A DNA stretch of 64,000 nt. It comes from Prorocentrum cordatum (lineage: Eukaryota; Sar; Dinophyceae; Prorocentrales; Prorocentraceae). Shown one piece after another: positions 6,089 through 60,119 of the stretch (the stretch's first letter is position 1; every line of letters starts with the position of its first letter). The position numbers were made by a program, and so were the translations under genes. The DNA lies in the NCBI GenBank assembly GCA_963575745.1, contig CAUYUJ010004592.1, positions 432,040 through 496,039 on the forward strand. The letters are read 5' to 3'. The notes under the pieces are model-generated. The model ran no database searches. It was not told the DNA's origin and saw only the letters and a list, made by a program, of their open reading frames with translations.

Positions 6089-6640
6089 CTGTAGGCGGCC
6101 GGGCGGCGGGGCAGGGCCGGAGAGGGGAGAGGGGGGATGTGGGGAAGCGCCAAGGCCCAGGAAGAGCCGCCGCGGACGCGCAGCCAGTCTCACACGGCGA
6201 GCTCCCTGTGATTTCCTGTGGCCCCGATTGTGCAGAATCGCGCTCGGCCATTGCCTGCCCAAGTTCTGCAAAGGGCTTGCCCAGTGAGTGATGCCTCTCT
6301 TCCTGAGAGCATGGGGCCCAAGGTATGAAGACCAAGCTGTTGGGCATCCTGACCCAGAGCTCCATTCAATGTTTGAAAAGTTGGAAGACCTTACCGACTT
6401 GCTAGGCCTAGATTATCTAGACGACAACTCGGAGTGTGGCAACGACTTGCGCGCTAATCCAGCTGACGACCATCAGGCCCCACGTTTCGCTGATGCTGCT
6501 CGTGGAGGAGATCGGACCTTCTAAGCTGCGGGTGGAGTTTTCTCCAATGCCCAGGGTCCCCTAAATTCTCAAATTTCCTGGGCGTTCCCGCGCGTCCTCG
6601 GGCTGCCGCGCATGACTTTCCCGTCGGCCAGAGGGCCCCA
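6089..6640. other. No recognisable feature
   Basis: This is moderately complex sequence upstream of the GH3 exon on the minus strand. Short open frames exist on both strands (for example 6288-6524 plus) but none shows family motifs or convincing splice borders. The preceding GH3 exon would be expected here or further right. Confidence 0.4.
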
Positions 6641-8008
6641 AGATGGGCCAAGAGGGCCCCAGAAAGCGCCCAGGAGGGTCAACAAAAACGCGTCCAAGAC
6701 AGCCTAAGAGCGCTCCAAGACGCCCAAGGTGGCCCCAAGACGGCCCCAAGACAGCCCAAGAGGCCCCAAAGAGGCCCTAAGCTCCAAGAGGACCCCCAAG
6801 AGGGCCCAAAGAGGTACAAATCATTGCTTGTCCTTGTGCTTTGCGATGTTTTCCGCGTTCTCGCGTTTTCGGGCTTCCGACGCTCTAGAATGGCCCCAGA
6901 GGCCTCCAAGACCACCCCAAGACGGCCCAAGAGGCCCCGAAGGGGACCCCAAAACGGCCAAAGAGGGCACCGAAACGGCCAAAGAGGAGCCCAAGATCGC
7001 CCAAGAGGGCCCCAAGACGGCCCCAAGAGGGGCTCAAGCGGGGGAACACGAACGGACAATTTGAGCCTTCCGCCCGAAGAGGCCCCCAGGAGGCCACAAG
7101 AGGTCCCAAAGAAAGCCTAAGAGGCCCCCTAGAGGCTCCACGAGGTTCCCAAGAGGCCCAAAAAGAGGCCTCAAGAGTCTCCAACTGGACCCCAAGAGGC
7201 TTCAAAATTGCCTCCAAGAGGCCCCTGGAGGCCTCCCACGATATCCAAACGAACATCCAAGAGGCCTCTAACCCACAAAACAAGGATCCGCCGCCTCCTG
7301 TTCTGCTGACTTATCGCAGGGATGCCCGGCGCGCTGGACTTCTTACGATTTGGTTTTGGTTCCTTTCCAAAAGAGCTCCCCGTGGGGCTTCGGCCCGTCC
7401 CGCCGGCCACCCGACAGGCGCCCAAGTCTCTCAATGACCTCCCAAAACGGCTCAAGATGGTCTCCAAGACGGCCAAGATGGCCCAAGATGGCCTCCAAGG
7501 TGGCCTTCAAGACGGCTAAGATGACTCCAAGATCCTTCCAAGACGGCTCAAGATGCACCCAATAGGCCTCCAAGACGGCCCAAAAGGCCTCCAAGAGGTC
7601 CTCCAGGAGTCCCCAAGATCGCCCCAAGAACGCCCAAGAGGCCTCCAAGATGGTCCCATGACGGCCCAAGAGGCCCCCAAGCCGCCCCCCGAAGAGCCCC
7701 AAGAGGGCCCAAGAGGCCTTCAAGACGCCCACGATGGTCTCCAAGACGGCCCTGAAGCGCACCAAGAGGGCCCCAAGTCGGTTCAGAGAGGCCCCCAAGA
7801 TGGCTTCCGACGGCGTCAGGCGGGTCGGGAACGCCCTAAGACGACCAAAGAGGCACCCCAAACAGCCCCAAAGAGGCCCCTCAGAGGCCCAGGGATGCTC
7901 CCGAGGGGCCTCCAAAAGGCTCCCGGGAAGCTCCGCAGGGGCCTCCTAAGCGGCCTTCCAAGAGGCCTCCCGAGAGGCCTCCCAAGAGGTTCCCAAGAAG
8001 TCTCCTCC

Positions 8009-8155
8009 TCCTACTCCTCCGTTTCCTCCTCCTCCTCCTCCTCCTCCTCCACCATCCTCATCCTCATCCTCATTATCATCCTCATCCTCGTCCTCATCCT
8101 CCTCCTAATCATCATCCTCCTCCCTCTCCTGATCGTCCTCCTCTTGCTCCCCCAC
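8009..8155. repeat. TCC/ATC microsatellite within the array
   Basis: A (TCC)n then (ATCCTC)n tract separates the CCAAGA array from a recurring non-array module (8150-8420). Similar short TCC tracts sit at 10340-10400 and 11478-11500, in the same position relative to the module. Confidence 0.8.
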
Positions 8156-8420
8156 GCGGATCCCCGAATGCTTTCCAAACCGACTCGGGGAACAACTGGC
8201 CCGACAGCTTGGCCAAGCTGTAGCCCAGTTGTCGGCCACATAGTCGCTTCCACAAGGGCAGGGGGCGGCGGTGATTCGCCGTTGGCGTCTTCAATCCGCC
8301 GCCCCCTGTGGTCTTGCCACATGGATGCTGGGCGTGCTGGACGCTAGACGGTTTGGTCTTGGTTCTTTTCCACAAGAACTCTCCCTGGGGCTTCCCCCCG
8401 TCCCTCCAGTCCACTGGCAA
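8150..8420. repeat. Dispersed module associated with the CCAAGA arrays
   Basis: A ~250 bp non-tandem block runs from GGGGAACA...GGCCCGACAGC through GGGGGCGGCGGTGATTCGCC to a CTTTTCCA(C/A)AAGAAC...GGGGCTTC end. Recognisable relatives lie at 10400-10640, 11510-11665, 22740-22900 and 23545-23710, and a partial one at 7290-7400. On the minus strand the same peptide recurs (ANHRRPLPF...HVAERCGKS), so an old coding origin is possible but unproven. Confidence 0.6.
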
Positions 8421-11400
8421 GGAAAGCAATTTGCAGAATTCTCAAACACATTCTCCCATGACGGCTCGAGATGGCTTTCAAGACGGCCAAGATGGTCCAA
8501 GATGGCCTCCAAGATGCCGCCAAGATGGCCAGCATGACCTCCAAGACGGCTCAGATGGCTCCAAGGCGCCTCCAAGACTGCCCAAGCTGCACCCAAGACG
8601 GCCCCAGATGGCCTCAAGATGACCCAAGGCGGCTCAAGCGGCTCCAAAGAGGCTTCCAAGACGGCCCAAGCGGCTCCCAAGAGGGCCTCCAGGCCTCCAG
8701 GAAGGCCCGAAGAGCTCACACTCCTTTCTTTCCCAAGGTTTTGCAATGAGTTTGGGGTTTACTCCTTTTCGGCCTTCCGAATGTCCGAGACGGCCCAAGA
8801 GCTCCCAACGATCGCCCCAAGATCGCTCATGAGGCCTCCAAGATGGCCCCAGAACGGCCCTAGAGGGAGGCCTCCAAGACGCCCAAAATGGCTTCCAAGA
8901 CGGCCCTGAAGCGCCGCAAAGGGCCCCCCCAAGTCGATTCAGAGAGGCTCTCAAGACGGATTCCGACGGCGTCAGACGGGCCAGGAGGCCACCAAGATGG
9001 CCCAAGATGGCTCCGAAGAGGTCTCGGAGACAGCCCAAAGTCCCCAAGAGGGCCTGCAAGAAGGCCCGAAGAGGCCAAAATCATTCATTTCTATGGTGTT
9101 TCGAAGATTTGGGCATTTGCTTCTTTTCGGCCTTCCGACGGCCCGAGACGGCCCAAGATCGTCCCCAAAGATCGCCCCACGATAACCCAAGAGGCATCCA
9201 ATATGGCCCCAGAAAGGCTCCAAGAGGGCCCCAAGACGGCCCAAGGGGCCTCCACGTTGGCCCAGAGAGGCCCTCAAAACGGCATCCGACGGCGTCAGAC
9301 GGGCCAGGAGGCCATCAAAGACTGCCCAATATGGCTCGAGGATGACCCAAGACTGCCCAAGAGGGCTCCAAGAGGCCCTCAAGAGGTCTCCACGACGACC
9401 CAAGAGGCCCCCACGAGGCCAAAATTGTTGATTTCCATTGTTGTTGTTCAACGATGCTGGTATTTGTTTTGTTCTGTCTTCCGACAGCCCAGGACGGTCC
9501 AATAGCTCCCAACGACCACCCCAAGATTGTCTCAGAACGGCCCAGGAAGCCCCCAAGACGGCCCCAAGAGGGCCCCGAGACGACCCACGAGCCCCCAAAG
9601 ATCGCCCCAAGATCGCCCAAGAGGCCTCCAAGATGGCCCCAGACCGGCCCAAGAGGCCTCTAAGACGGCCCCAAGACGGCCCCAAGAGGGCCCCAAGATC
9701 GCCCAAGAGGCCCCCAAGACGCCCAAGCTGGCCTCCAAGACTGCCCTGGAGCACCCGAAGAGGGCCCCCAAGGCGGCTTCCGACGGCGTCAGACGGGCCA
9801 GGAATACCCTAAGATGACCCAAGACGGCTATGACGACGGCTCGGACATGGCACAAGACGGCCCAAGATGCCCCAAGAGGTCTCCAAGACGGCCCAAGAGG
9901 CCCCCAAGAGGGCCTCCAGGAAGGCCCGATGAGGCCAAACTCATTGATGTGCCTTAGGTTTTTGAAGGATTTTAGCATTTGCTTCTTTCCTATCTTCCGA
10001 CGGCCCGAGACGGCCCAAGAGGCCCCCAAGACGGCCCCAAGACGGCCCCAAGGGGGCCCCACGATGGCCCAAGAGGCCCCCAAGACGCCCAAAAGATGGC
10101 CTCCAAGACGGCCCTGGAACACTCCAAGAGGGCCCCAAATCGGCCCAGAGAGGCCCCCTAAGACGGCTTCCGACGGCGTCAGACGGGCCAGGAATGCCCT
10201 AAGACGGCCAAAGACGCCCCCGAGAAGCCCTCAAAGGCCTCACAGAGGCCCACGGAGACCCCCATGTTGTCTCCAAGAGGCTCCCAAGAAGCTCTCAGGA
10301 GGCCCCAAGAGTGCCCCCAGAGGCTCCCAAGATGCCCCCTCCTCGTCCTCCTCATTCTCCTCCTCCTCCTCCTCCTCCTACTCCTCCTCCTGATCTTCCC
10401 CGCCATCCTCCACCAAGTGTTCCCGGAAGGTCTTCTACAACGGCTGGGGGAACACATGGCCCGACAGCGTCGCATAGCTCTTTCCACAACGCTCCGCCAC
10501 ATGGGCGATTCCAAAAGGCAGGGGGCGGCGGTGATTCTCCGTAAGCCCTTGCCACAGGGGTGTCCGGCGTGATGAACCCTGTAGGGTTAGGTTTTGCTTT
10601 TTCCAAAAGAACCCCCCTAGGGCTTCGGCCCGTCCCGCCGACAACCCAAAATGACCCGCCCGCTTCGCCACCAACGTTTCCAACATCGGCCGTTTCGCTC
10701 GGAACATCCTCAAGCAATCGCGATCTTAGGGATCCCAGCCCAAGACCCTTTATGATAATAGTGAACGTTTCGCGCGAGACATCCTCGAACAATGACGATG
10801 TTGGCCCCAGAACGGCCCAAGAGGCCCCCAAGACGGCCCCAAGAGGGCCCCAAGATCGCCCAAGAGGCCCCCAAGACGCTCAAGGTGGCCTCCAAGACTG
10901 CCCTGGAGCACCCGAAGAGGGCCCCCAATCGGCCCTCTTGGGGCCCCCAAGGCGGCTTCCGACGGCGTCAGACGGGCCAGGAATACCCTAAGATGGCCCA
11001 AGACGGCTATGACGACGGCTCGGACATGGCACAAGACGGCCCAAGAGGCCCCCAAGAGGTCTCCAAGACGGCCCAAGAGGCCCCCAAGAGGGCCTCCAGG
11101 AAGGCCCGATGAGGCCAAACTCATTGATGTGCCTTAGGTTTTTCAAGGATTTTAGCATTTGCTTCTTTCCTATCTTCCGACGGCCCGAGACGGCCCAAGA
11201 GCCCCCAAATATCGCCCCAAGATCGCCCAAGAGGCCTCCAAGACGCCCAATATGGCCCCTCAGACGGCCCTGGAACACCCCAAGAGGGCCTCAAATCGGC
11301 TCAGAGAGGCCCCCTAGGACGGCTTCCGACGGCGTCAGACGGGCCAGGAATGCCCTAAGACGCCCAAAGAGACCCCCGAGAAGCCCTCAGAGGCACTTAA

Positions 11401-11659
11401 GTGGCCCAAGATGCCTCCAAGAGGCTCCTAGGAAGCTCCCAGGAGGCCCCAAGAGTGCCCCCAGAGGCTCCCAAGATCCTCCTCCTCCTCCTCCTCCTGA
11501 TCTTCCCCGCCACCCTCCCCAAGTGTTCCCCGACGGATTTCTACAACGGCTGGGGGAACACATGATCCGATAGCTTCGCAAAGCTCTTGCCACAACGCTC
11601 AGCCACATGGGCGATTCCAAAATGCAGGGGGCGGCGGTGGTTCGCCGTAGGCGTTTTCG

Positions 11660-22440: not shown

Positions 22441-24280
22441 TTTTCAAGTTTCCTCTGGGGACCCCAAGAGCACCCAAGATCGCCCCAAGAGCTCCGGGGA
22501 AGCCCTCGAGAAGCCAAACTCACTGCAAAACCAGAGGGGGATTGCGATTTGTATGCTTTCGCGCGTCCGCGTCCGATGCGCTTCCGAAGCTTGCGCATGC
22601 CCACGTAAGCGTCTTGGGGGCATCTTGGAGCTCTCCTGGTGGCCTCTGGGACCTCTTGAGAGCCTCTTGGGGCCATCTTCGACGCTGGATGCCTCCGTGG
22701 TGGCTCCGGAGAGCTCCCCTCTCGTCAACATCCCCGTCCTTCCTCACGTGTTCCCCAAGATGTTCCCACAACGGCTGGGGTCACACTCAGTCCGATAGCC
22801 TGGCCGAGCTCTGGCCAAAACGTTCGGCCGCATAGGCGCTTCCAGACGGCGGGTGTCGGCGCTGATTCGCCGCAGGCGCCTTGAATTCGCCTCCCCGTGT
22901 GCTTATCACGGGGGACCACGGCGTTGAATGGTTTCACTGCTCTGATTAGGCGGAACCTTTCTGAGGGTTCCCAGTGACCTTCGCCTTGACCCGCTGGCCA
23001 CCCGGGAAGACCCGGCCGGACCTCCTTGGCCAGAAAATATGATTCCACAACGGTCAAGACTGCCTCGAAGACGGTCCCAAGACGCCTCCAAGACGGACAA
23101 GATGGCCTCGGCCCCAAGACATCCAATCTGTCCCCGACACGGCCGAATACGCCCTCTAGACGGAAGACCCCCAAGACGCCCAAAGAGCGCTCCATGAGGA
23201 CCTCCAGGATGCCAAAATCGTTGATTCCCCCTGGGTGCTTCAATGGTTTTAGCGCTCTCGCCTGTTCGGGCTTCCGACGCTTCCAGGCGGCCCCATAGGT
23301 CGCTCCAAGACGGCCTTAGGGCCCGAGAGACCCGCAAGACGGCCCGAGAGGGCCCCAAAACGGCCCAAGAGGCCCCGAAGATGGCCCCGCATACCTTCAA
23401 GGCGGCCCAGAAGCGCCCAAAGGGGGTCCCCCACAGAGGCCTCAAGAGGCCCCCAGGAGGCCCTCAGATGCCCCTCAGAGGCCCCTAGGAGCCTCAAGAG
23501 GCCTCCTGTTCGTCATCCTTCTCCTCCCTCTCCTCATCCTGCCCTTTCCTTTCCCAAGTGTTCCCCCAAGGGGTTCCACAACGGCTGTGGGAACACACGC
23601 TGTAAAAGCATGGCCAGACTTTGGCCCAACGCTTGGCCGCATGGGCGCTTCAAAAAGACAGGAGGCCGCGGTGGTTCGCTGGAAGCGTCTTCGAGATATC
23701 CGCCACCGTGCCTTTAGCACGTAGTGGAGTGCCCAAAGATAGTGCAGTCCTGAAAGGGACAAAGTTTGTAAGGTTCTTGAGGGCCCAGACCATCGGTTTC
23801 CAAAGAATTGCTGGAAATTGCTGGCGTGTGTCGCGCGAGCCCTCTGGAACCCTCGAGCAGTTTGCAAGAACCACCTCGTACAGCCAGACGGTCTAACAGC
23901 TCCAAGACGGTCAAATAGGCCCCCAAGACAGCCCAAGGGGCCCCAAGATGTCCCAAGAGGCTCCAAGAACTTTCACAAGAGGGCTCCGAGAACCTAAAAT
24001 CATGTTTCAAGATATTCCAGACGACCCCAACAGAGCCCAAGAGAGCCCCAAGAGGCGGAACGAGAACCGACATTTCGATTCCTCCGCTCCTAGATGATTC
24101 CCGAGGCAGCCAGCAGGCCCCCAAGAGGCCTGCGACATGCACATTAGAAACTCCAAGAAACTCTGAAACCGCCTCCAAAAAACTGCCGGGAGGCCTCCAA
24201 CATATCCCGATAGGCATCCAAGAAGCATCTGACGCACAATCCAGGCACAGTCGGGGGATGGGCCGAAGGCCACTATGCAT
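22440..24280. repeat. Second block of CCAAGA-type repeats with the dispersed module
   Basis: Motif-bearing stretches at 22450-22700, 23040-23510 and 23890-24250 alternate with two copies of the non-array module (22740-22900, 23545-23710). The architecture is the same as at 6.6-11.6 kb but shorter and more diverged. Confidence 0.7.
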
Positions 24281-25538: not shown

Positions 25539-25870
25539 CTACAGTGTTGCCCCCATTTCGAGATCGGCGCTTTTGAAGGGGCCCTGGGACACACAAATAA
25601 CTAGACACACGTAACAGGACTCCCCCACATTTTCCCGCATGTTCTGGGCTTCTGTCTTCCCCCACACTTCCCATATGTTCTCATATTTCCGAGGGAGTCG
25701 ACGATTAGTTGTGTCTGTGTGTCTTCTTCCCTCCTGAGCTTTGCTCCAGTCGTTGAGAAGGGGGCTCTTGCCCCAGCGCGGGCCAAATTGCTGGATCTCC
25801 GATGCATTCGTCGCTACCGCCCCCTTGCGTTCCCCTCGCCCGCCTTCCCCTGGTTTCCGTCTTCCTCATC
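25539..25870 (-). CDS. Hypothetical gene fragment split by an introner-like repeat
   Basis: The 5' piece (to 25734) has one clearly protein-like frame including AVATNASEIQQFGPRWGKSP and ending WSKAQ at CAG|GAGGG. After the 150-nt repeat (25584-25733) the sequence resumes at CCCAG|GGC, and the same frame continues GPFKSADLEMGATL to a TAG at 25539. The upstream border is uncertain (the frame opens near 25870). No family is recognised. Support rests on the frame continuing across a repeat that has splice-like ends. Confidence 0.35.
25584..25733 (-). mobile_element. Introner-like repeat, family 4, copy 1 (GA-AG)
   Basis: A 150-nt repeat on the minus strand begins AG|GAGGGAAGAAGACACACAG and ends TTTGTGTGTCCCAG|GG. 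It shares body sequence (GACACAA-TAATCG near the 5' end, TTATTTGTG near the 3' end) with copies at 26642-26795 and 29705-29844. The ends contain weak inverted similarity (GACACACA and ACACAAATAA). It could be spliced as a GA-AG intron. Confidence 0.55.
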
Positions 25871-26210
25871 CTCCTCTTCCCTCCACAGCCGGACTTCATG
25901 GGAGAGGGCACGCGAGAGGACACAAGAGCCTTCCGAGGGCCACGCTGCCACAGAAATGCAGGAGGCATGGGTCGCAGGACGCAGGACACGAGGGTACCCT
26001 TGATCTGGCAGGGTCGACCTACTAATCCGGGCCGCCTGTAGGTTCATTCTCCTGCATCCTCAACCTGCTCCTCCTCCTCCCCCTCCATATGTACACAGCT
26101 CCCCTCTCTGATTCCGCCTCACAAGAGGGGGTCACTCGGGGGATCCGGGTCCGCTGGGACATCCAACGGCGGATAGAAAAAAATCAGCGCACTGGAAATG
26201 GATGGTGCAC
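25871..26210. other. No firm feature
   Basis: This is the continuation upstream of the previous locus on minus; several frames are open to about 25990. A short TCC tract lies at about 26065-26085. Nothing else was recognised. Confidence 0.35.
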
Positions 26211-27063
26211 CTAGCTTGCCCCATCCCCTCTCCGCCCTGTCTTTTCCCTCTCCCCCCCCCGCCCCCGCCCACGACTCCTCAACCTTCTGGTCCGAGGCGC
26301 CCCCCGTCCCTGGGACAGCGACGGCATGTGCAAATGGCCCCCCCTATGGACCCTCAAGCCGAGCCGCGCTGGACCGGCTGGTTCGCCGCCGTGCGGCTGG
26401 GAGACGAACGCCCCGGCGAAGTGAACCCCACCCTCCCCCTCAGAAATCGTGGGGGGTAGGGGTAGGGTTCGCATGTGGCCCCCTACCGTGCTGGCAGGCA
26501 CGTCTCGGGTACCGGGGCGTCCACGTGTCCTGGGCCACTGTGGAGCCGCTGGGCCCCCCTCCAGGGCCCGCCGCGTCCAGGAAGGGCCGCCGAGGTGCGC
26601 AGGCCCTTCCAACTGATCCGACTCATCAGGCTGAAGGGGCCCTGGGACACACACAAATAAATACACACAAATAAAAAGTTCCCAATATTTTCCAATATTT
26701 TCTGGGTTTTTGTCTTCCCGCCCAATTCCCATGTTTTCCAATCTTCTCTTGGGGATCGACGATTAATTGTGTCTGTGCGTTTTTTTCCCCCCCTCCTGAC
26801 AGGCGAGCGGCTGTTACGGATGAGACGCCGCGCATCGCTGGCATTCCTTGGGGAGCCCCGATCTCTGGCGTCGCGCCCGTTTCGCAGCGCGGACCTGCAG
26901 AGGTGTAGGCCCAGGCCCTGGGCCCGGTCAGGGCCCCATGGACGCAGATCGTGAACAGAGCCTCCCGTCCTGTTTTTTCTTGAAGATTGAAAGAATACCC
27001 TTCTGGCAAAATGTCCTTTAGTGAAAGCTGCCAGGGGCACTCCACGTACGAACGGCACCGCAT
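26211..27063 (-). CDS. Hypothetical two-exon gene with an introner-like intron
   Basis: Exon 1 (27063-26796) starts at an ATG and is strongly protein-like: LSLKDILPEGYSF, EKTGREALFTICVHGALTGP, AWAYTSAGPRCETGATPEIG. It ends CTGTCAG|GAGGG. Removing the 154-nt repeat (26642-26795) joins to CCCAG|GGCCCC, and the frame continues through PLQPDESDQLEGPAHLGG to a stop at 26211. The total is 699 nt, an exact multiple of three (232 residues). The second half becomes Gly/Arg-rich, and a GT donor-like site near 26475 (CACG|GTAGGG) may end exon 2 earlier. No known family or targeting signal was recognised. Confidence 0.45.
26642..26795 (-). mobile_element. Introner-like repeat, family 4, copy 2 (GA-AG)
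   Basis: This is a 154-nt copy of the repeat at 25584-25733 and 29705-29844. It sits exactly at the junction of two open frames, with CAG|GAGGG at its 5' side and CCCAG|GG at its 3' side on minus. Confidence 0.6.
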
Positions 27064-27249
27064 TCCGAGTATGTAGACCCCAGTGGGGTAGCTAATCGAC
27101 GTTCAAAACAAACGCATGTATCTGGCGAGATACACGTTGATTTGCGGCACGCTCGAACGCTGAACCAATGCAGATTTCCTGTCGACTTGTCAGGGTGGGC
27201 GTTCTCTCAATGCCTATCTCCCCTTTCCCCCAGGACCCGCTCCCCCATG

Positions 27250-27446
27250 CAGAGGAAGAATGAACGGCATAAACATAACCTTTTTGGCGCTCCGCGCGGA
27301 TTTCTTGGATCCGCGCCGGACCCCTCTCCCTGGTGCGTTGAGCGCGCCGGGGGCGGCGCCGGACGCGCCGCGAGGGGGGCACAGCGCAGATCCAAGAAAT
27401 CCGCGCGGAGCGGCAAGAGTCAATGTCTCTGCTGTTTCTCCTTCGA
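27250..27446. mobile_element. MITE-like element, family 1, copy 1
   Basis: Arms of about 50 bp are inverted repeats: GCGCTCCGCGCGGATTTCTT on the left and its complement at 27390-27412. The outer left end has GGCATAAACATAAC, as in other copies. The loop is GC-rich and itself palindromic (GGGGGCGGCGCC). Other copies lie at 33917-34113, 59858-60065 and 61403-61572, with a half copy at 31432-31500. Bases 27064-27249 hold nothing recognisable. Confidence 0.75.
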
Positions 27447-27450
27447 AGTT

Positions 27451-27605
27451 TAAGTCGGGCCTGTCCCCCTACAGGGGAAGCTTGGCAGAAGAATTGAACA
27501 CACCAGAAAATACCCCCAGAATGCCAGAAAATAGTCCAAACATAGTCCCGAGACAATTTTTTGACTATTTTGGAATACTCGCCCTGTAGAGGGACAGGCC
27601 CGACT
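27451..27605. mobile_element. MITE-like element, family 3, copy 1
   Basis: The terminal inverted repeats read AGTCGGGCCTGTCCCCCTAC on the left and, inverted, on the right (GTAGAGGGACAGGCCCGACT). The interior is A/T-rich (AAAATA-type), unlike the surrounding GC-rich DNA. A second copy is at 35601-35787. It begins within a few bases of the end of the family 1 element. Confidence 0.75.
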
Positions 27606-27618
27606 GAATTCGAAGATT

Positions 27619-27887
27619 ACGCGCCAATCCTGGCCGAGACTTATGTTGTTCCCATCCTACTTAAAGACAAGCATCCCAGAAATAATTTCGAGCACCCGGA
27701 AGAGTGTCGAAAGAGTGTCGAACGAGTGTCGAAAGAGTGTCGGACGAGTCTCTCCCAAAGCCCGACACGTGAACACCCTTGAGTTTCGGTACGTACTTTT
27801 TTTCTGGGCGCTCGACATGCTTCCTGGTGGTCGGGGCTAAAATAGGTGGGAACATCATAAAGTTCACGCGCCGATCCTGGCCGAGAC
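27619..27887. mobile_element. MITE-like element, family 6, copy 1, between 22-bp direct repeats
   Basis: The element (about 27641-27865) starts TTATGTTGTTCCCATCCTAC and ends with the inverted form (GTGGGAACATCATAA). Internally GAGTGTCGAAA is repeated 4-5 times. It is bracketed by 22-bp direct repeats at 27619-27640 and 27866-27887 (one mismatch; core GCGCC-ATCCTGGCCGAGAC). A second copy without such flanks is at 33366-33562. Confidence 0.6.
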
Positions 27888-28059
27888 GGCCCCGTCGCTC
27901 TGCGCCGCTCCCGTGGAGGCCCCGGGCGCCGCCCCGGCAGCGCCGCGCCCGCCGAGGGCCCGAGGGCCGGGGCACCGCGCACGGGTGGGGCGCCGAGAGA
28001 CTCTGCGGCGGCCCCGCCCCCCGGGGGCACGTTTTTTCCCGTCGGCGGCGAGGCAGAGG

Positions 28060-28222
28060 CAGCCCGTCCTCGTCCTCGTCCTCCTCCTTCTCGTCGTCCT
28101 CCTCCTCCTCCTCCTTCTCCTCCTCATCCTTCTCCTCCTCCTCCTCCTCCTCCTTCTCCTTCTCCTCCCTCCTTCCTCTCCCTCCTCCTCCTCGCCCTCC
28201 TCCTCCTCATCGCCCTCCTCCT
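28060..28222. repeat. TCC/TTC pyrimidine tract
   Basis: An imperfect TCC tract. Downstream, 28223-28700 is GC-rich with open frames on both strands but no recognised domain; one plus frame (28427-28700) is Arg/Ala/Gly-rich. Confidence 0.8.
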
Positions 28223-28703
28223 GGCCAAGAAGCCACCAGGCCGTCGGAGGCGAGGCAGAGGCAGCTCCAGCGTGTGGCCATGTGGGGCAGCCGGAAGGCG
28301 AATTGTTCGGCGTGCAAGAGAGACGAGGATGGCCGCGCGGGGGGAGGAGTGGGGTGCAGTATACCGACTCGAGACGTGACCGATGTTTGCTGTCATGCGC
28401 GGCCCACCACTCTGCTATAATCGCATGTGGCCTCGGTGCTAAGCGCCCTCCGCGCTTGGGGAGAAACGCTGAGGCGTGGAAGAGTTCCGCGCAGAGCAGG
28501 CCGGTGCGGCCAGCCGAGGCAGCAGGCGGGTGCGGCCCCCCCGGGCACGGGCTCCGCCCATCTCTTGGGTGTCCCAAAGCCGTGCGGTGGCAGGGCCCCC
28601 CCTGGGCAGAGGCCTGGAGCTCCTCGAGATATGCGGTGTGCCATGGAGGGAATTCTGAGGAAACGCCTGCGCCGCCACTGCCAGCGACTGCGCGGCGGGG
28701 ACC

Positions 28704-28789
28704 TATCCATATCCACCGCATGGGAACCGACGCCCTGGTGCCCCAGCGGGCGGTGGATGTGGATAGACATATATATATATACACATATA

Positions 28790-28836
<47 letters not shown>

Positions 28837-28845
28837 TCCCCCCGG
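28704..28845. repeat. Hairpin followed by (TA)n palindrome
   Basis: CTATCCATATCCACCGC at 28705 pairs with GGCGGTGGATGTGGATAG near 28750-28768, giving a 17-bp imperfect stem with a ~30-nt loop. It passes directly into self-complementary ATATATACACATATATATGT-type sequence and (TA)n to 28840. A strong cruciform candidate. Confidence 0.65.
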
Positions 28846-28899
28846 GGGCCCGAATGTGTCCATATCCAGCGCCTGCCGAGGCTCCGAAAACTGACCTCC

Positions 28900-29085
28900 A
28901 GGCGATCCTCCTCCCCCTCACCCTCTCCCCTCCTCCTCCACCTCCTCCTCCTCCCCCCCTCCTCCTTGCCTCCCCCTCCGCCTCGTTCTCCTCCGCCTCG
29001 TCCTCCTCCTCCCTCCTCCTCCTCCTCCTCCTCCTCCTCCTCCTCCTCCTCCTCCTCCTCCCTCCCCTCCCCTTCCCCTCCGCCT
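28900..29085. repeat. TCC pyrimidine tract
   Basis: TCC repeat with a pure core near 29005-29065; homopolymeric frames only. Confidence 0.85.
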
Positions 29086-29336
29086 ACGCCCACGCCTCGG
29101 AGCGACAGACCGGAGTGACATCGAAGTCGGCGAAGACCTCCCCGCAGGGTCCGTCGCCACACGGCTCCGGGACCTCGGCGGGCCCCGTCGCCCGAGCCGG
29201 CCTCGGAGCGAGCGGCCCGAGGCCCAGAGCCGTGCGGTGGCCCAGCAGCCCCACCGGCGTACCAAAAGCGGTGTGGTCAACACAGCGTTGGAGGGGCCCC
29301 CAACTGCTCTCAGACACCCCCTCTGGTTATGAGGCA

Positions 29337-29492
29337 GTTTTTAACACATGGGATTTTTGAAAATATAGGGTTTTTAATACATGATGGATTTATGAATAAA
29401 TGTATGCATGAACTCACCGTTGTTTTTAATACTAAATCCCTGCACTTTTGATACATGATCCGCACGCGGAGCATGTATCAAAACCGCCGCTG
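29337..29492. mobile_element. MITE-like element, family 2, copy 1, with 9-bp target duplication
   Basis: An AT-rich element is bounded by exact 9-bp direct repeats TATGAGGCA at 29328-29336 and 29493-29501. The ends are inverted (TTTTTAACACATG on the left; CATGTATCAAAACC on the right). It contains TGATCCGCACGCGGAGCATG, itself palindromic. A second copy at 31202-31365 is ~75-80% similar by eye. A nine-base duplication fits a Mutator-type source (8-9 for hAT/Mutator). Confidence 0.75.
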
Positions 29493-29704
29493 TATGAGGC
29501 AACCGTGCTGGGAAACTTTCGCTATGCTGGGCCTCCTGGGGCCCTTCCTGGGCCTCGGGGCCGTCGGAGCACGGCTCGAGGATGCAACGCCGGTCCCGTG
29601 GAAGGGGTCCAGACCTATGGGGCGCGCCGGGGCGAGGTGGCCAGGCCAGATCGACTGCTCGAACCGATCGGCGGCGCGCCGAGGGGGACAGTGATAAAGG
29701 ATCC

Positions 29705-29844
29705 CTGGGACACACAAAAAAGTAGACACAAATAATAGGATTCCCCATATTTCCCAATGTTTTCTGGGTTTTCGTCTTTCCCCCCTACTTCCCAGATATT
29801 CCGGGGAGTCGGCGATTACTTGTGTCTGTGTGTTTCCTTCCCGC
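29705..29844 (-). mobile_element. Introner-like repeat, family 4, copy 3 (GC-AG)
   Basis: A 140-nt member of the family. On minus it begins CAG|GCGGGAAGGAAACACACAG and ends TTTGTGTGTCCCAG|GGATCC. This donor is GC instead of GA, and dinoflagellates use both. Confidence 0.55.
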
Positions 29845-30119
29845 CTGAAGTGAGAGGCGGCACACCTGCCCAGAAGGCGGCAGGGCTTTTCAGAAGCCCT
29901 CGGGCCTTCGAAAAGCCGTCGGTAGCTCCGGGGAATGCCCACCCCCTCTGCCTTCACCCTGGGCGCCGCCGAGCGGAAGCGCGTGGTGGAGCATGGCAGG
30001 AGAGCGGGAAAAACCAGAGCGGCACAGAAGAAGCTGGCACCCCGGAAGGAAGGTAGTGCGGGTGCGGTCTCTTGCGAGGTTGGCGAATCTTCTAGGAGGA
30101 GGCAGCTGCTAGTTATCAT

Positions 30120-33562: not shown

Positions 33563-33916
33563 TTACTGCTCGGGTTGACTGTTTGGGGTGGCCTCCCCAG
33601 AGAGCCGCCAGGACGCCGCGCGGCACGCGCGATACGCAGGATGTACCCTGTCAGCCCGCAGGAGGTTCAGCGCACAGCGCCTCATACGCCAGGGCAGGGG
33701 CGTTTTTTTACGCCCTTGATGTATGGGGTGGCCTCCCCAGAGCAGCCCATCACGAGGTCCAGAGCAATCTGCAGGCGCTTCGTCAGCACTCTTGGCCGCC
33801 CGCCGTTGGGGTGGCACTGGAAGCAGCACTGGTCCGCCCAGGCTGCCCACCCTCGCAGGGCTCCCCCGACCTGGCCCCTGCTGCTGTCGCGCACGTCCCT
33901 GTGACCACAGTGTCTT

Positions 33917-34113
33917 AGGGGAACAAAAAGTGGCATAAACATAAAAACTCGCAGGTCCGCGCGGATTTCTCGGATCGGCGCTGGGACCCCCGCGGCGGCG
34001 CCTCCGGCGCCGCCCCTGGCACGCTCCGCGCGCCCGGGAGGGGGTCCAGCGCCGATCCGAGAAATCCGCGCGGACCTCCGAGTTTTTATGTTTATGTCAC
34101 TTTTTGTTCCCCT
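33917..34113. mobile_element. MITE-like element, family 1, copy 2 (best preserved)
   Basis: About 75-bp arms are almost perfect inverted repeats (2-4 mismatches): AGGGGAACAAAAAGTG, GCATAAACATAAAAACTCG, TCCGCGCGGATTTCTCGGAT. The loop is GCGGCGGCGCCTCCGGCGCC-type palindrome. Both ends abut TA (TTA|GGGG and CCCC|TAT), compatible with a TA target duplication as in Tc1/mariner-type elements. Confidence 0.85.
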
Positions 34114-34985
34114 ATGTCCGCCTGCCCTGCTCGATGCTTCATCAGTCGTCAGTTCGGCGCTGCCCTCGCTCGTCGGCACGCGGGTGGCGCCGCATGCCGC
34201 ACGCCGTGATGCTGCGGCACAGCGCGGCCCCACGCTTTGCGCCCGCCCGCGCGCGCAGGCGCGGCCAGTGTGTGCGTAGCGCGTGAGGGTGACAAGCGGA
34301 CGGGAAGAACTGGGGAAGTCAAAAGGTGCCGAAACCGCTACTCCCCAGGCCTCTCCCGGGGCGCGTTATGACCAAGATTTCGAAGCGAATCCAGCGGTGG
34401 CGACGAGGGCCTCCCGGGAGGCTCAAAACGGCGAAGACGAGGGAAGGGCAGCGGCGTGGGTGCCCTTTCCTCCTCCGAGGAACGGTGGAGACGGCGGGGG
34501 GGGGCTGAGGGCGGGGGAAGGCTCCAGAGGCACGTTGCCGCGGCGGGTGATCCCCGCGGGCCCCCCGTCGCCTCTCGGCAGCGCCCGCCGATGGGCCAGA
34601 GGGCCCCCCCCTCGCAGCTGCGCCGAGCCCGGCCCTGGGCCTCCCGCGGCGTCGGCGAGCTGGAGCCCCAGGGCGATGCCCGAACTCGAGGCGGGAATCG
34701 CCGAGACAAGCAGGCCTGTCTCCAGGATAGAAAGTGCCACCCCTCGTCGTGGCCTCTGCTTCTCCCTTCCCCTCCACTCGACTCCCCTGTGCCCCCCATT
34801 CCTGTGCCCCCTCCCCATCCCACTGCCTCGAACCTAGGTGTGCTGGCACTCCGTATGTATCATGCAGCCAAGGCTGCCGTTGCCCATAGGGACCAGTTTG
34901 CAGAGGCCCAACAAGGGGGCAGCAGCAGCCGCAGCCATGCACGCCATCGACAATCAGAGTGACCTGGGCAGAGCTGCACCCCCTC
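34114..34985. other. GC-rich stretch, no recognisable gene
   Basis: Open frames run through on both strands (minus 34320-34820; plus 34283-34837), with Arg/Pro/Gly bias and no family motif. One Ala/Ser-rich plus frame at 34850-34960 is too short to judge. Confidence 0.4.
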
Positions 34986-35787: not shown

Positions 35788-35789
35788 GG

Positions 35790-36410
35790 GTACGAAGCCC
35801 AACAGCAGTTCCTGGTCATTTTGAACCGGACTCGCTGTCCGCGCCGCCGCGACCTGTCCCTTCGAGACAGGAGGCCGCCCGCCAACGGCGGCCGCTGTTG
35901 GCTTGGGACAGCATTTGTTGTTGGGCATTGTGCAAATTTTTTCCGTACCCATTTCGGGCGTCCAAATGAGGAACCCGGAATTGAGCAGGGACCGACCGTC
36001 CCGGCATTCCTATAGGCCTACCACGACATGCTCTTAGAACCGAGAAATGTTCTAATAACAAAAACAATGCTCTTAGACCACCGACCCCACGACGGCCCCC
36101 GCCAGAACCTGCTCAGAGAACACTTCGTGGAAGCCACAACAGGTTCTTGGAGCATGGTTTGGTAGGCCCACAGGCACGCCAGGACGCTCCGCCTCTGCTT
36201 GACGGAGTGGGCACTTCGGTCCAGGCGCGCCCCTGGCAGCCCCGCACGGCCAGAGGGGCACGGGCGGCGGTCCCAGCACTCGGACGACCTTGTCGTTCAC
36301 CTGGTCCTGGGCGGGGCGACGCCTCCCCCCCAACGAGAGACCTTCTGCAGTGCAGCATGGAGGAGGAGGCCCCCTCCCCGTCCTCCATCCTCCCCATCCT
36401 CCTCCTCCTC
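35790..36410. other. No recognisable gene
   Basis: Balanced then GC-rich sequence. A minus frame at about 36060-36200 (ACLWAYQTMLQEPVV) looks mildly protein-like without a recognised family. Confidence 0.35.
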
Positions 36411-42414: not shown

Positions 42415-43095
42415 GCGTCCAAAACGGCCTCGGCGAGGAAGCCAAAATCATCGGTTTTACTAGGGTTTTGGCCGATTTTGGAGGCTCCCGAGGGGGGAGG
42501 CTAATTGGGGGACGCCCTTCCTTTGATCGATCACCTCCAAGATGGCCCCAAGAGCGCTCCCAAGGCTCCCAAGAGCGCCCCAAGAGGGCCTCAAGAGGCG
42601 CCCAAGAGGCCTCAAGAGGCGCCCAACAGGCCCCAAGAGGCGACCAGGAGGCCCCAAGAGGCCTCCAAGAGTCCCCCAAAATACCCCCAAGAGGCCCCCA
42701 AGAGACCCCAAGAGGCTCCCCCGAGGCACCCAAGACGGTCCAAGAAGCTCCCGGGACCGCCAAGAGGCCCCCAAGACGCCCCAAGAGACCTCAAAGAGTA
42801 TCCCAAGAGACGTCCCAAGAGACTCCGCGAGGCATTCAAGAGGCCTTTGACTCTTCTGATCGCCCTTATCCTCCTCCTCCTCCCCCTCATCAGCACCATC
42901 ATCACCATCACCCTCACAATCACCATCACCATCGTCAAGGCCACCACCATCATCGTCATCATCAACATCATCAATATCAACATCAACATCATCATCCGCC
43001 CATTCCTCCTCCTCCTCCTCCTTATTCCTCCTTCCCCACCCTCATCATCCTCCTCCTCTTCCGCCTCCGACTCCTCCTCCATCCCCCCGTACCCC
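42415..43095. repeat. CCAAGA-type array passing into ATC/TCC tracts
   Basis: A ~430-bp array of CCCAAGAGGCC-type units (42535-42850) is followed by (ATC)n and (TCC)n to 43085. Same repeat class as at 6.6-11.6 kb. Confidence 0.75.
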
Positions 43096-49260: not shown

Positions 49261-50500
49261 GAAAGCCACTCATCCTCACTGCGCGGGTTGACTGTACACT
49301 CAGGCAGCACGACGGGGCGCGGCGAACAGCACATACGGCAGCGGAAGCCGCACATGTCCTCTTCAGCAACGGAGGCAAGGCCGAAAGAGACAGAGGGAAA
49401 GAGAGAACCGATCCTGAGAGGCGCGGGCGCGCGGGAGGCAGGAGGGTGCGAAGGGGCAACAACCGGGAGCGAGAGCGAGCGGCGAGAGGCCAACGACGAG
49501 TGGACGGGGCAGCAAGTCGAGGCGGTGATGGCAATGGGAAGCTGCTGCCGGTCTGCCATGGGCCGAGGGGCCAGGAGCACACGAAGGAGGGGACCTCCTG
49601 ATGCGCTACAGTACCGAAGTGGGAGACCGTGGAGCTAAGACCTCGGGGAGAGATGCCCCGCAGTGCCTCACGAAAAGGGCGGCGGAGATCGAGGCAGCAA
49701 CAGCCGACGCGAGGGCCTGGTTCAGCAGGCCCTGCTCCATGAGGCTGGCGATCGCGCTCCTGGAGGGCGCGCAAAGGCGTCCCCCCCCGAACCGTTGAGA
49801 CTGCGCTTCCCTTCCGAGACAGAGGGGGCTTCCTAGAGGGCAGGGGCCTTCTTAGAAAGGCCCGGGGCCCAGGGCTTCTAAGAAGGCTTCTCAGCAGCCT
49901 GGATGGCCTCTACGACGCCCCCGTGCTTTCTTGCGAGACCAGCCTCCTCGTCCCACCCCTTCGTGCGCGCCGCCAGGAGCCCTCTCCCCCACCTGAGAAT
50001 CGGGCGTTGGTAGAACTGGTTTTAGTGGAACCTCGGGGGCGCCCCCCCGTCCCATGTCCACTAACCGGAACTGCCGTCACCCGAAAAAACACAAGCTATG
50101 GCAAACCTGGTTTAGTGATTCTGGCCAAGTCAAAGGCTCCGGGGCCCTACCACTAACCGGGTCCTGGGGTCCTGGCCATACCCGAAGAAAGGGTCCAGGG
50201 ACTTTAGGCAACTGGTACGCCGGCACGCCGGCACAAAGTGCGGCCATGTGTTGGAGCATTCTCCGTTCTCCACTCTCTCGCCAGCTGCACCCTGCAAAGT
50301 CCTGGTTCGCAGAAGCCTGGTTTCTGAGGCCCTGAGAGAGTCCCGTGGATCGAAGAACACAAATCTCGGTTGCTCTTCCACCCTCTCGAGTCACCGCAGG
50401 GCTCCCGCGACCGCCGCGGGGTTCCTCTGGGCCCCCCCACCCACAGGCCACCGGAGACCACCTTCAAGGGCATATCATGTCGCTTGGAAAGTACTGCAGG
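49261..50500. other. Unassigned, with an inverted-repeat cluster at 50008-50160
   Basis: At 50008-50160 the motif GGTTTTAGTGGA / TCCACTAACCGG / TGGTTTAGTGA / CCACTAACCGGG occurs four times in alternating orientation, suggesting a nested or double foldback element. The rest (including 50160-50500, minus frame AALCAGVPAYQLPKVPG) has no recognised gene. Confidence 0.4.
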
Positions 50501-59839: not shown

Positions 59840-59857
59840 CGCAGCCTCCTGAAGTAA

Positions 59858-60065
59858 TCAGGAAACGAACAATTGCATAAACAGAAACAACTCGGAGGTC
59901 CGCGCGGATTTCTCGGATCCGCGCTGGGCCCCCCGGCGGCGCCTCAGGCGCCTCTGGCGCCTCCCCTGGCGCGCTCCGCGCGCAAGTGAGGGGGCCCAGC
60001 GCCGATCCGAGAAACCCGCGAGGACCTACGAGTTTTTCATGTTTCTGCCATTCTGCGTGCCCCTG
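59858..60065. mobile_element. MITE-like element, family 1, copy 3, inside the DIRS-like element
   Basis: The arms match copy 2 (GCATAAACAGAAACAACTCG, GGTCCGCGCGGATTTCTCGG; right arm CGAGAAACCCGCGAGGACC). The loop is GGCGCCTCAGGCGCCTCTGG-type. Ends (T)CAGG and CCCTG. More diverged than the copy at 33917-34113. Confidence 0.8.
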
Positions 60066-60119
60066 GGCAAGGTCAGTTTCGCCCCGCGCCGGCAGGGCGC
60101 CCGCGCGGGCCTGCGGGCG

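Follow-up and report, generated by a model that had tools for sequence, protein, structure and literature searches.

Several introner systems offer a frame for the element described here, a short repeat present in three copies (c1, c2 and c3) in a 64-kb window, that is, the whole 64,000-nt stretch of DNA analysed from the dinoflagellate Prorocentrum cordatum. According to Gozashti et al. (2022; PMC9860276), some introners draw both splice sites from the place of insertion, and others carry both and add 12 nt. The family described here belongs to the former group, and its mechanism is unusually clear. The element is very probably a non-autonomous mobile element of P. cordatum that acts as an introner, with both splice sites co-opted from the target and with c1 to c3 as non-intronic copies. 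Its nearest likeness is to the introners of the Florenciella type (PMC9860276, Fig. 2E), in which the element holds no splice site, both sites come from the target, and splicing removes the element together with one duplication. Unlike these, the P. cordatum element has a GA donor, a 5-bp target-site duplication (TSD) and a Prorocentrum host, and its family runs to thousands of copies, the sampled ones lying mostly outside recognisable genes.

The introns of P. cordatum itself are enriched, according to Dougan et al. (2023; PMC10666404), in introner elements recognised by their inverted and direct repeats. The host species agrees, as do direct repeats 3-5 nt long and inverted repeats close to the intron ends; that pattern, however, was counted in introns, and the excerpted passages of that paper present neither a family consensus nor a splice mechanism. 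The introner elements of Amoebophrya (Farhat et al. 2021; PMC7789003) are alike in their direct repeats at exon/intron borders and their transposon-like spread, but their splice motifs vary widely and their hairpins measure 8-20 nt, whereas the P. cordatum element shows a GA-AG register and a weak inverted repeat. In another dinoflagellate, Polarella glacialis, many transposon-like families are likewise reported to make introns (Roy et al. 2023, as cited in PMC11453091). Direct repeats of 3-5 nt, as used by Farhat and by Dougan to define introner elements, are present in this family, and an inverted repeat in the range of 8-20 nt, lying no more than 30 nt from the ends, occurs among the three window copies in c1 only (GACACACA, 8 nt, equidistant from both ends). 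No description of the present repeat family was found in the literature searched, which comprised main texts in part and excluded supplements. The three copies and their duplications, the latter given in plus-strand letters, are as follows.

25574-25737, minus strand (the sense strand of the element): copy c1, a complete element of 164 nt delimited by the ends of homology and an exact 5-bp TSD; 87% identical to a 36-copy consensus
25569-25573 (left) and 25738-25742 (right): TSD of c1, GCTTT, exact
26632-26799, minus strand: copy c2, a complete element of 168 nt delimited by the ends of homology and an exact TSD; 94% identical to the consensus
26627-26631 (left) and 26800-26804 (right): TSD of c2, CAGGC, exact
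29695-29848, minus strand: copy c3, a complete element of 154 nt delimited by the ends of homology and an exact TSD; 88% identical to the consensus
29690-29694 (left) and 29849-29853 (right): TSD of c3, AGTGA, exact

A preliminary description of this DNA had reported three minus-strand copies at these places in a dinoflagellate host, and both points stand: the copies are 75.9-76.7% identical pairwise over 162-163 nt, and a peptide encoded by the element matches proteins annotated as P. cordatum. Its borders (25584-25733, 26642-26795 and 29705-29844) were set too narrowly, as homology extends 4 nt past its donor and 10 nt past its acceptor. At the borders given above, a 5-bp direct repeat flanks each of the three copies exactly, with letters that differ from copy to copy; of 2,000 triples of places drawn at random, one shared a 5-mer repeat at some position among 41 x 41 offsets. 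A 23-nt core pattern, allowing up to three mismatches, matches the window at the three copies only (mean 0 in 100 shuffles), and no further copy of the repeat was found in the 64 kb. The composition of the window is mostly between 55% and 68% GC, and that of the P. cordatum CCMP1329 genome is 59.7% GC (PMC10666404). The window gave no match to Rfam at gathering scores and no tRNA, and a core pattern of the repeat had no exact match in viral contigs.

The family was characterised in the genome to which the window belongs, of 4,128,499,153 bases in 21,875 contigs. A 150-nt query returned 40 scored matches from 4,048 first-look candidates. A profile built from the three copies gave 59 matches across the window and 28 loci, including two that repeat window copies; among the other 57, 37 have both ends preserved, including the three in the window and two in identical loci, and 20 with truncated or odd ends were set aside. 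The TSD is exactly 5 bp in 23 of the 37 full-ended copies, matches at four of five positions in 6 more and reaches 6 bp or longer in none, and when flanks were swapped between copies a match arose once in 1,332 pairings. A target-site duplication of fixed length, as seen in this family, is a mark of cut-and-paste DNA transposons (those like miniature inverted-repeat transposable elements). With one of the two identical loci omitted, 36 copies yield a consensus of 163 nt, TCAGGAGGGAAA...CCCCTTCA, to which the median identity of a copy is 93%. The exact 29-nt 5' end of the element occurs 4,932 times genome-wide (2,462 and 2,470 per strand; 0 for the reversed control), which is a lower bound on copy number. 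The density of 4 copies per 158 kb in the window and 12 arbitrary regions would extrapolate, as a very rough guess, to about 10^5 copies.

The element may be a DNA element or an LTR-like (long terminal repeat) one. Its terminal inverted repeats are imperfect; those of the consensus ends were equalled by 19 of 2,000 shuffles, weakly above chance, and those of c1, c2 and c3 singly by 43, 40 and 17 of 500. The ends read TC...CA in the sense orientation, as against the TG...CA of a solo LTR, and the window copies do not form an LTR pair because each has its own TSD. Folding was considered as evidence for an element and dropped, the hairpin energies of c1, c2 and c3 being not unusual (z-scores of -0.14, 0.26 and -1.64). 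At one genomic locus (L020:642-948) two element copies face each other head to head, their profile matches separated by 1 nt.

The evidence that the family makes introns comes from kinesin motor genes, in which introns were sampled by finding the genes exon by exon (136 matches). The resulting 75 loci consist of 20 mostly short exon gaps, 15 longer gaps and 40 exon edges. The element is present in none of the first 20, in three of the longer gaps (L062, L068 and L075) and in one of the exon edges (L094), or 4 of 75 loci in all, and it is in the sense orientation of the gene in all four. In L094, the exon PGTQAEVFDDCK is followed by the TSD AAGGA, a complete 162-nt element, a second AAGGA and then DLVQSAVDGYNV. 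This element is close to c2, with 142 of 161 aligned bases identical. Six registers of excision are possible in L094, and a single one has the form G-N...A-G, namely GCAAG|GATCAGGAGG...CCCCTTCAAAG|GACCTC, a GA-AG intron. In L062, element positions 3-142 and the last 25 lie at opposite ends of a 1,133-nt intron with a nested insert between them; AAGGA again stands on both sides, and the intron is GA-AG in the same register as in L094. The junctions of the kinesin introns thus read AAG|GATCAGG...CCTTCAAAG|GA, with both sites derived from the TSD AAGGA.

Excision in this register gives proteins that score 335.8 bits (L094) and 288.9 bits (L062) against the kinesin motor domain PF00225. When the spliced kinesins are aligned to 1sdm and to KIF9 (3nwn), the junction is free of gaps, which fall elsewhere. 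If L094 and L062 are left unspliced, or are spliced at the sites of the preliminary description, the frame is broken. Several other kinesin motors have a single open match over profile positions 1-325/327; the genome therefore holds uninterrupted motors, and neither intron position is always interrupted. On the strength of protein homology, the repeat family constitutes introns in two kinesin genes, and its predicted excision restores the motor domain.

These observations suggest a simple route from mobile element to intron. A short non-autonomous element with a 163-nt consensus would be inserted by an enzyme making 5-bp staggered cuts; the fixed 5-bp duplication is observed directly, and the enzyme is what we infer. 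A sense insertion into an exonic target that includes AG|G, AAGGA for example, would gain both splice sites from the duplication, with AAG|GATCAGG as the donor and CCCCTTCAAAG|GA as the acceptor. The new GA-AG intron would amount to exactly the element plus 5 nt, leaving the protein unchanged. Protein homology establishes the intron in the two kinesin genes, and from it we infer splicing of the RNA. Since donor dinucleotide and acceptor AG alike come from the duplication, a precise intron would be expected at a target of the form AG|G(A/C/T), or at one ending in AGG where the first T of the element completes GT. Among random 5-mers, 8.5% allow a precise register per orientation.

If this is correct, one and the same family is seen as a mobile element away from recognisable genes and in the form of introns, and the presence of AG|G inside the 5-bp duplication would be the rule that converts one into the other. 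Under such a rule intron gain becomes testable by counting: sense insertions into exons at AG|G should be introns, and antisense insertions or those at other targets should not. The rule also offers a concrete origin for the GA donors of dinoflagellates, since the target bases that follow AG become the donor.

Several observations weigh against this account. The precise introns number only two, both in kinesins and both with the TSD AAGGA, and they rest on protein homology. The copies in L068 (TSD TCGAT) and L075 (TSD AAATC) lie within long gaps between kinesin exons and are not themselves the intron. Among the 23 exact-TSD copies, which were picked by similarity to c1 or adjoin such copies, a G(T/C/A)-AG register is available to 1 in sense and 4 in antisense, which is no enrichment over the 8.5% expected. 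In two annotated P. cordatum proteins the element is part of the coding sequence. Finally, an excess of AGGA before the element may come from insertion preference. In a count of the pattern only, 62 of the 4,932 exact 5' ends are preceded by AGGA, where 19.3 would be expected for uniform composition or 17.8 for 60% GC.

The AGGA excess fits the retention of intron-making insertions, and could also come from the inserting enzyme. That the excess reflects a preference of the enzyme and not retention is a real possibility, if a somewhat doubtful one. The count covers AGGA alone and not its strand counterpart TCCT, which leaves room for such a preference; none of the 23 sampled copies has AGGA in its sense TSD, however, and this absence argues against a strong one.

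It is unlikely that the family is an ordinary DNA or LTR transposable element without any particular link to introns, the kinesin cases then being rare lucky insertions. Fixed duplications of 5 bp are common in LTR elements. The sampled copies lie mostly outside recognisable genes: 150 of 326 abutting open reading frames (ORFs) were scanned, and three Pfam families appeared once each, marginally (best E 2e-4). The targets of the 23-copy sample show no bias to AG|G in sense, and the 20 kinesin loci with mostly short gaps are devoid of the element. Set against this are two precise introns of one type in one gene family, the sense orientation of all four kinesin copies and a threefold AGGA excess. 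This alternative differs from the introner account mainly in weight, since an introner is here understood as a family that makes introns through co-opted sites. The idea of a simple mobile element uninvolved in introns was also considered; the copies in the longer kinesin gaps and exon edges overturn it.

The two coding matches raise the thought that genes can accommodate the element either as a GA-AG intron, where the 5-bp target holds AG|G, or otherwise as an in-frame coding insert. We regard this dual role as improbable. A peptide from one copy, searched in one frame of the element and one range of protein length, matches the two annotated proteins at 81% and 74% identity. The consensus plus TSD comes to 168 nt, or 56 codons, and in the consensus itself two sense frames out of three are open; in an after-the-fact test, two open frames were reached by 8 of 2,000 dinucleotide shuffles and three by none. 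Speaking against a dual role, the length plus TSD is divisible by three in only 18 of 36 copies. If the idea were true, the high copy number would be easier to understand, since the element would do no harm as either intron or exon. The two proteins that hold the translated element are P0001 and P0002 (L018:2655-3812).

That c1 to c3 are themselves introns, spliced at the element-borne sites CAG|GA(GC) and CCCAG|GG as first proposed, is very improbable, given that these sites break the frame of both kinesins and leave in each copy a remainder of 19 nt, 14 from the element and 5 from the duplication, which is not a multiple of three. In its favour, the internal motifs are present in all three copies, the donor is GA in 34 of 36 copies and GC in the other 2, the use of GA and GC donors by dinoflagellates is known (PMC11453091), and introners that bring both sites with them and leave extra bases are known from Aureococcus, with 12 nt (PMC9860276). 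However, the acceptor CAG is absent from 11 of 36 copies, as counted from alignment rows, and AG stands at the fixed position in 23 of 36. The preliminary description also held that removal joins two open, protein-like frames; at best these measure 369, 735 and 639 nt, which is ordinary beside 5,000 removals at random places in the window (median 573, quartiles 402-840), and in phase 0, the first phase it listed, c1 offers only 132 + 42 nt. In 43 of 46 full copies at least one sense frame can be read straight through with nothing removed, so that open frames on either side carry little weight.

Searches of annotated proteins with the predicted spliced products covered c2 and c3. The product of c3 had no match at E 10, and that of c2 had one unnamed protein (37 bits over 12% of its length), which is not convincing. 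Ten ORFs at or near c1 to c3 matched no Pfam family at E 0.1, and 20 further window ORFs gave two matches, both under the cut-offs, with no gene recognised; these weak tests suggest that there are no genes around the three copies. In the sense orientation, the duplications of c1 to c3 allow no G(T/C/A)-AG register, and that of c2 allows one in antisense, GC-AG. Copies c1 to c3 show no sign of being introns and belong to the non-intronic stock of the family. What survives of the earlier proposal of an introner with GA-AG ends in several genes is therefore its core, in two kinesin genes, without the named splice sites and without c1 to c3.

Other repeats in the window are related to sequences that fill kinesin gaps.

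27263-27418 (between c2 and c3), 33916-34115 and 59857-60066: family B, a palindromic repeat that also fills short introns of kinesins L041, L042, L043 and L050
27454-27609: family C, whose repeat has inverted ends (GTCGGGCCTGTCCC...) and is related to the gap of kinesin L049 (72.5% over 160 nt, E 3e-15)

Family B has the core TCCGCGCGGATTTCT.GGATC and ends GGAAC...CATAAAC, and its copy at 33916-34115 is 83% identical to the gap of L042. By eye, the borders of L050 show a direct repeat AGGAG that also permits GA-AG. Positions 50000-50163 are 77% identical to the 207-nt gap of kinesin L044, whose borders, again by eye, carry the direct repeat CAGGA (CAG|GA...CAG|GA). The sequence at 35788-35965 is 78-79% identical to gap sequences of kinesins L046 and L048, a further intron-forming repeat family. 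Large arrays of an 11/21/32-nt repeat resembling CCCAAGAGGC occupy 6630-11480, 23069-24001 and 42534-42846, and the same repeat is found in L061 and in the nested insert of the L062 intron.

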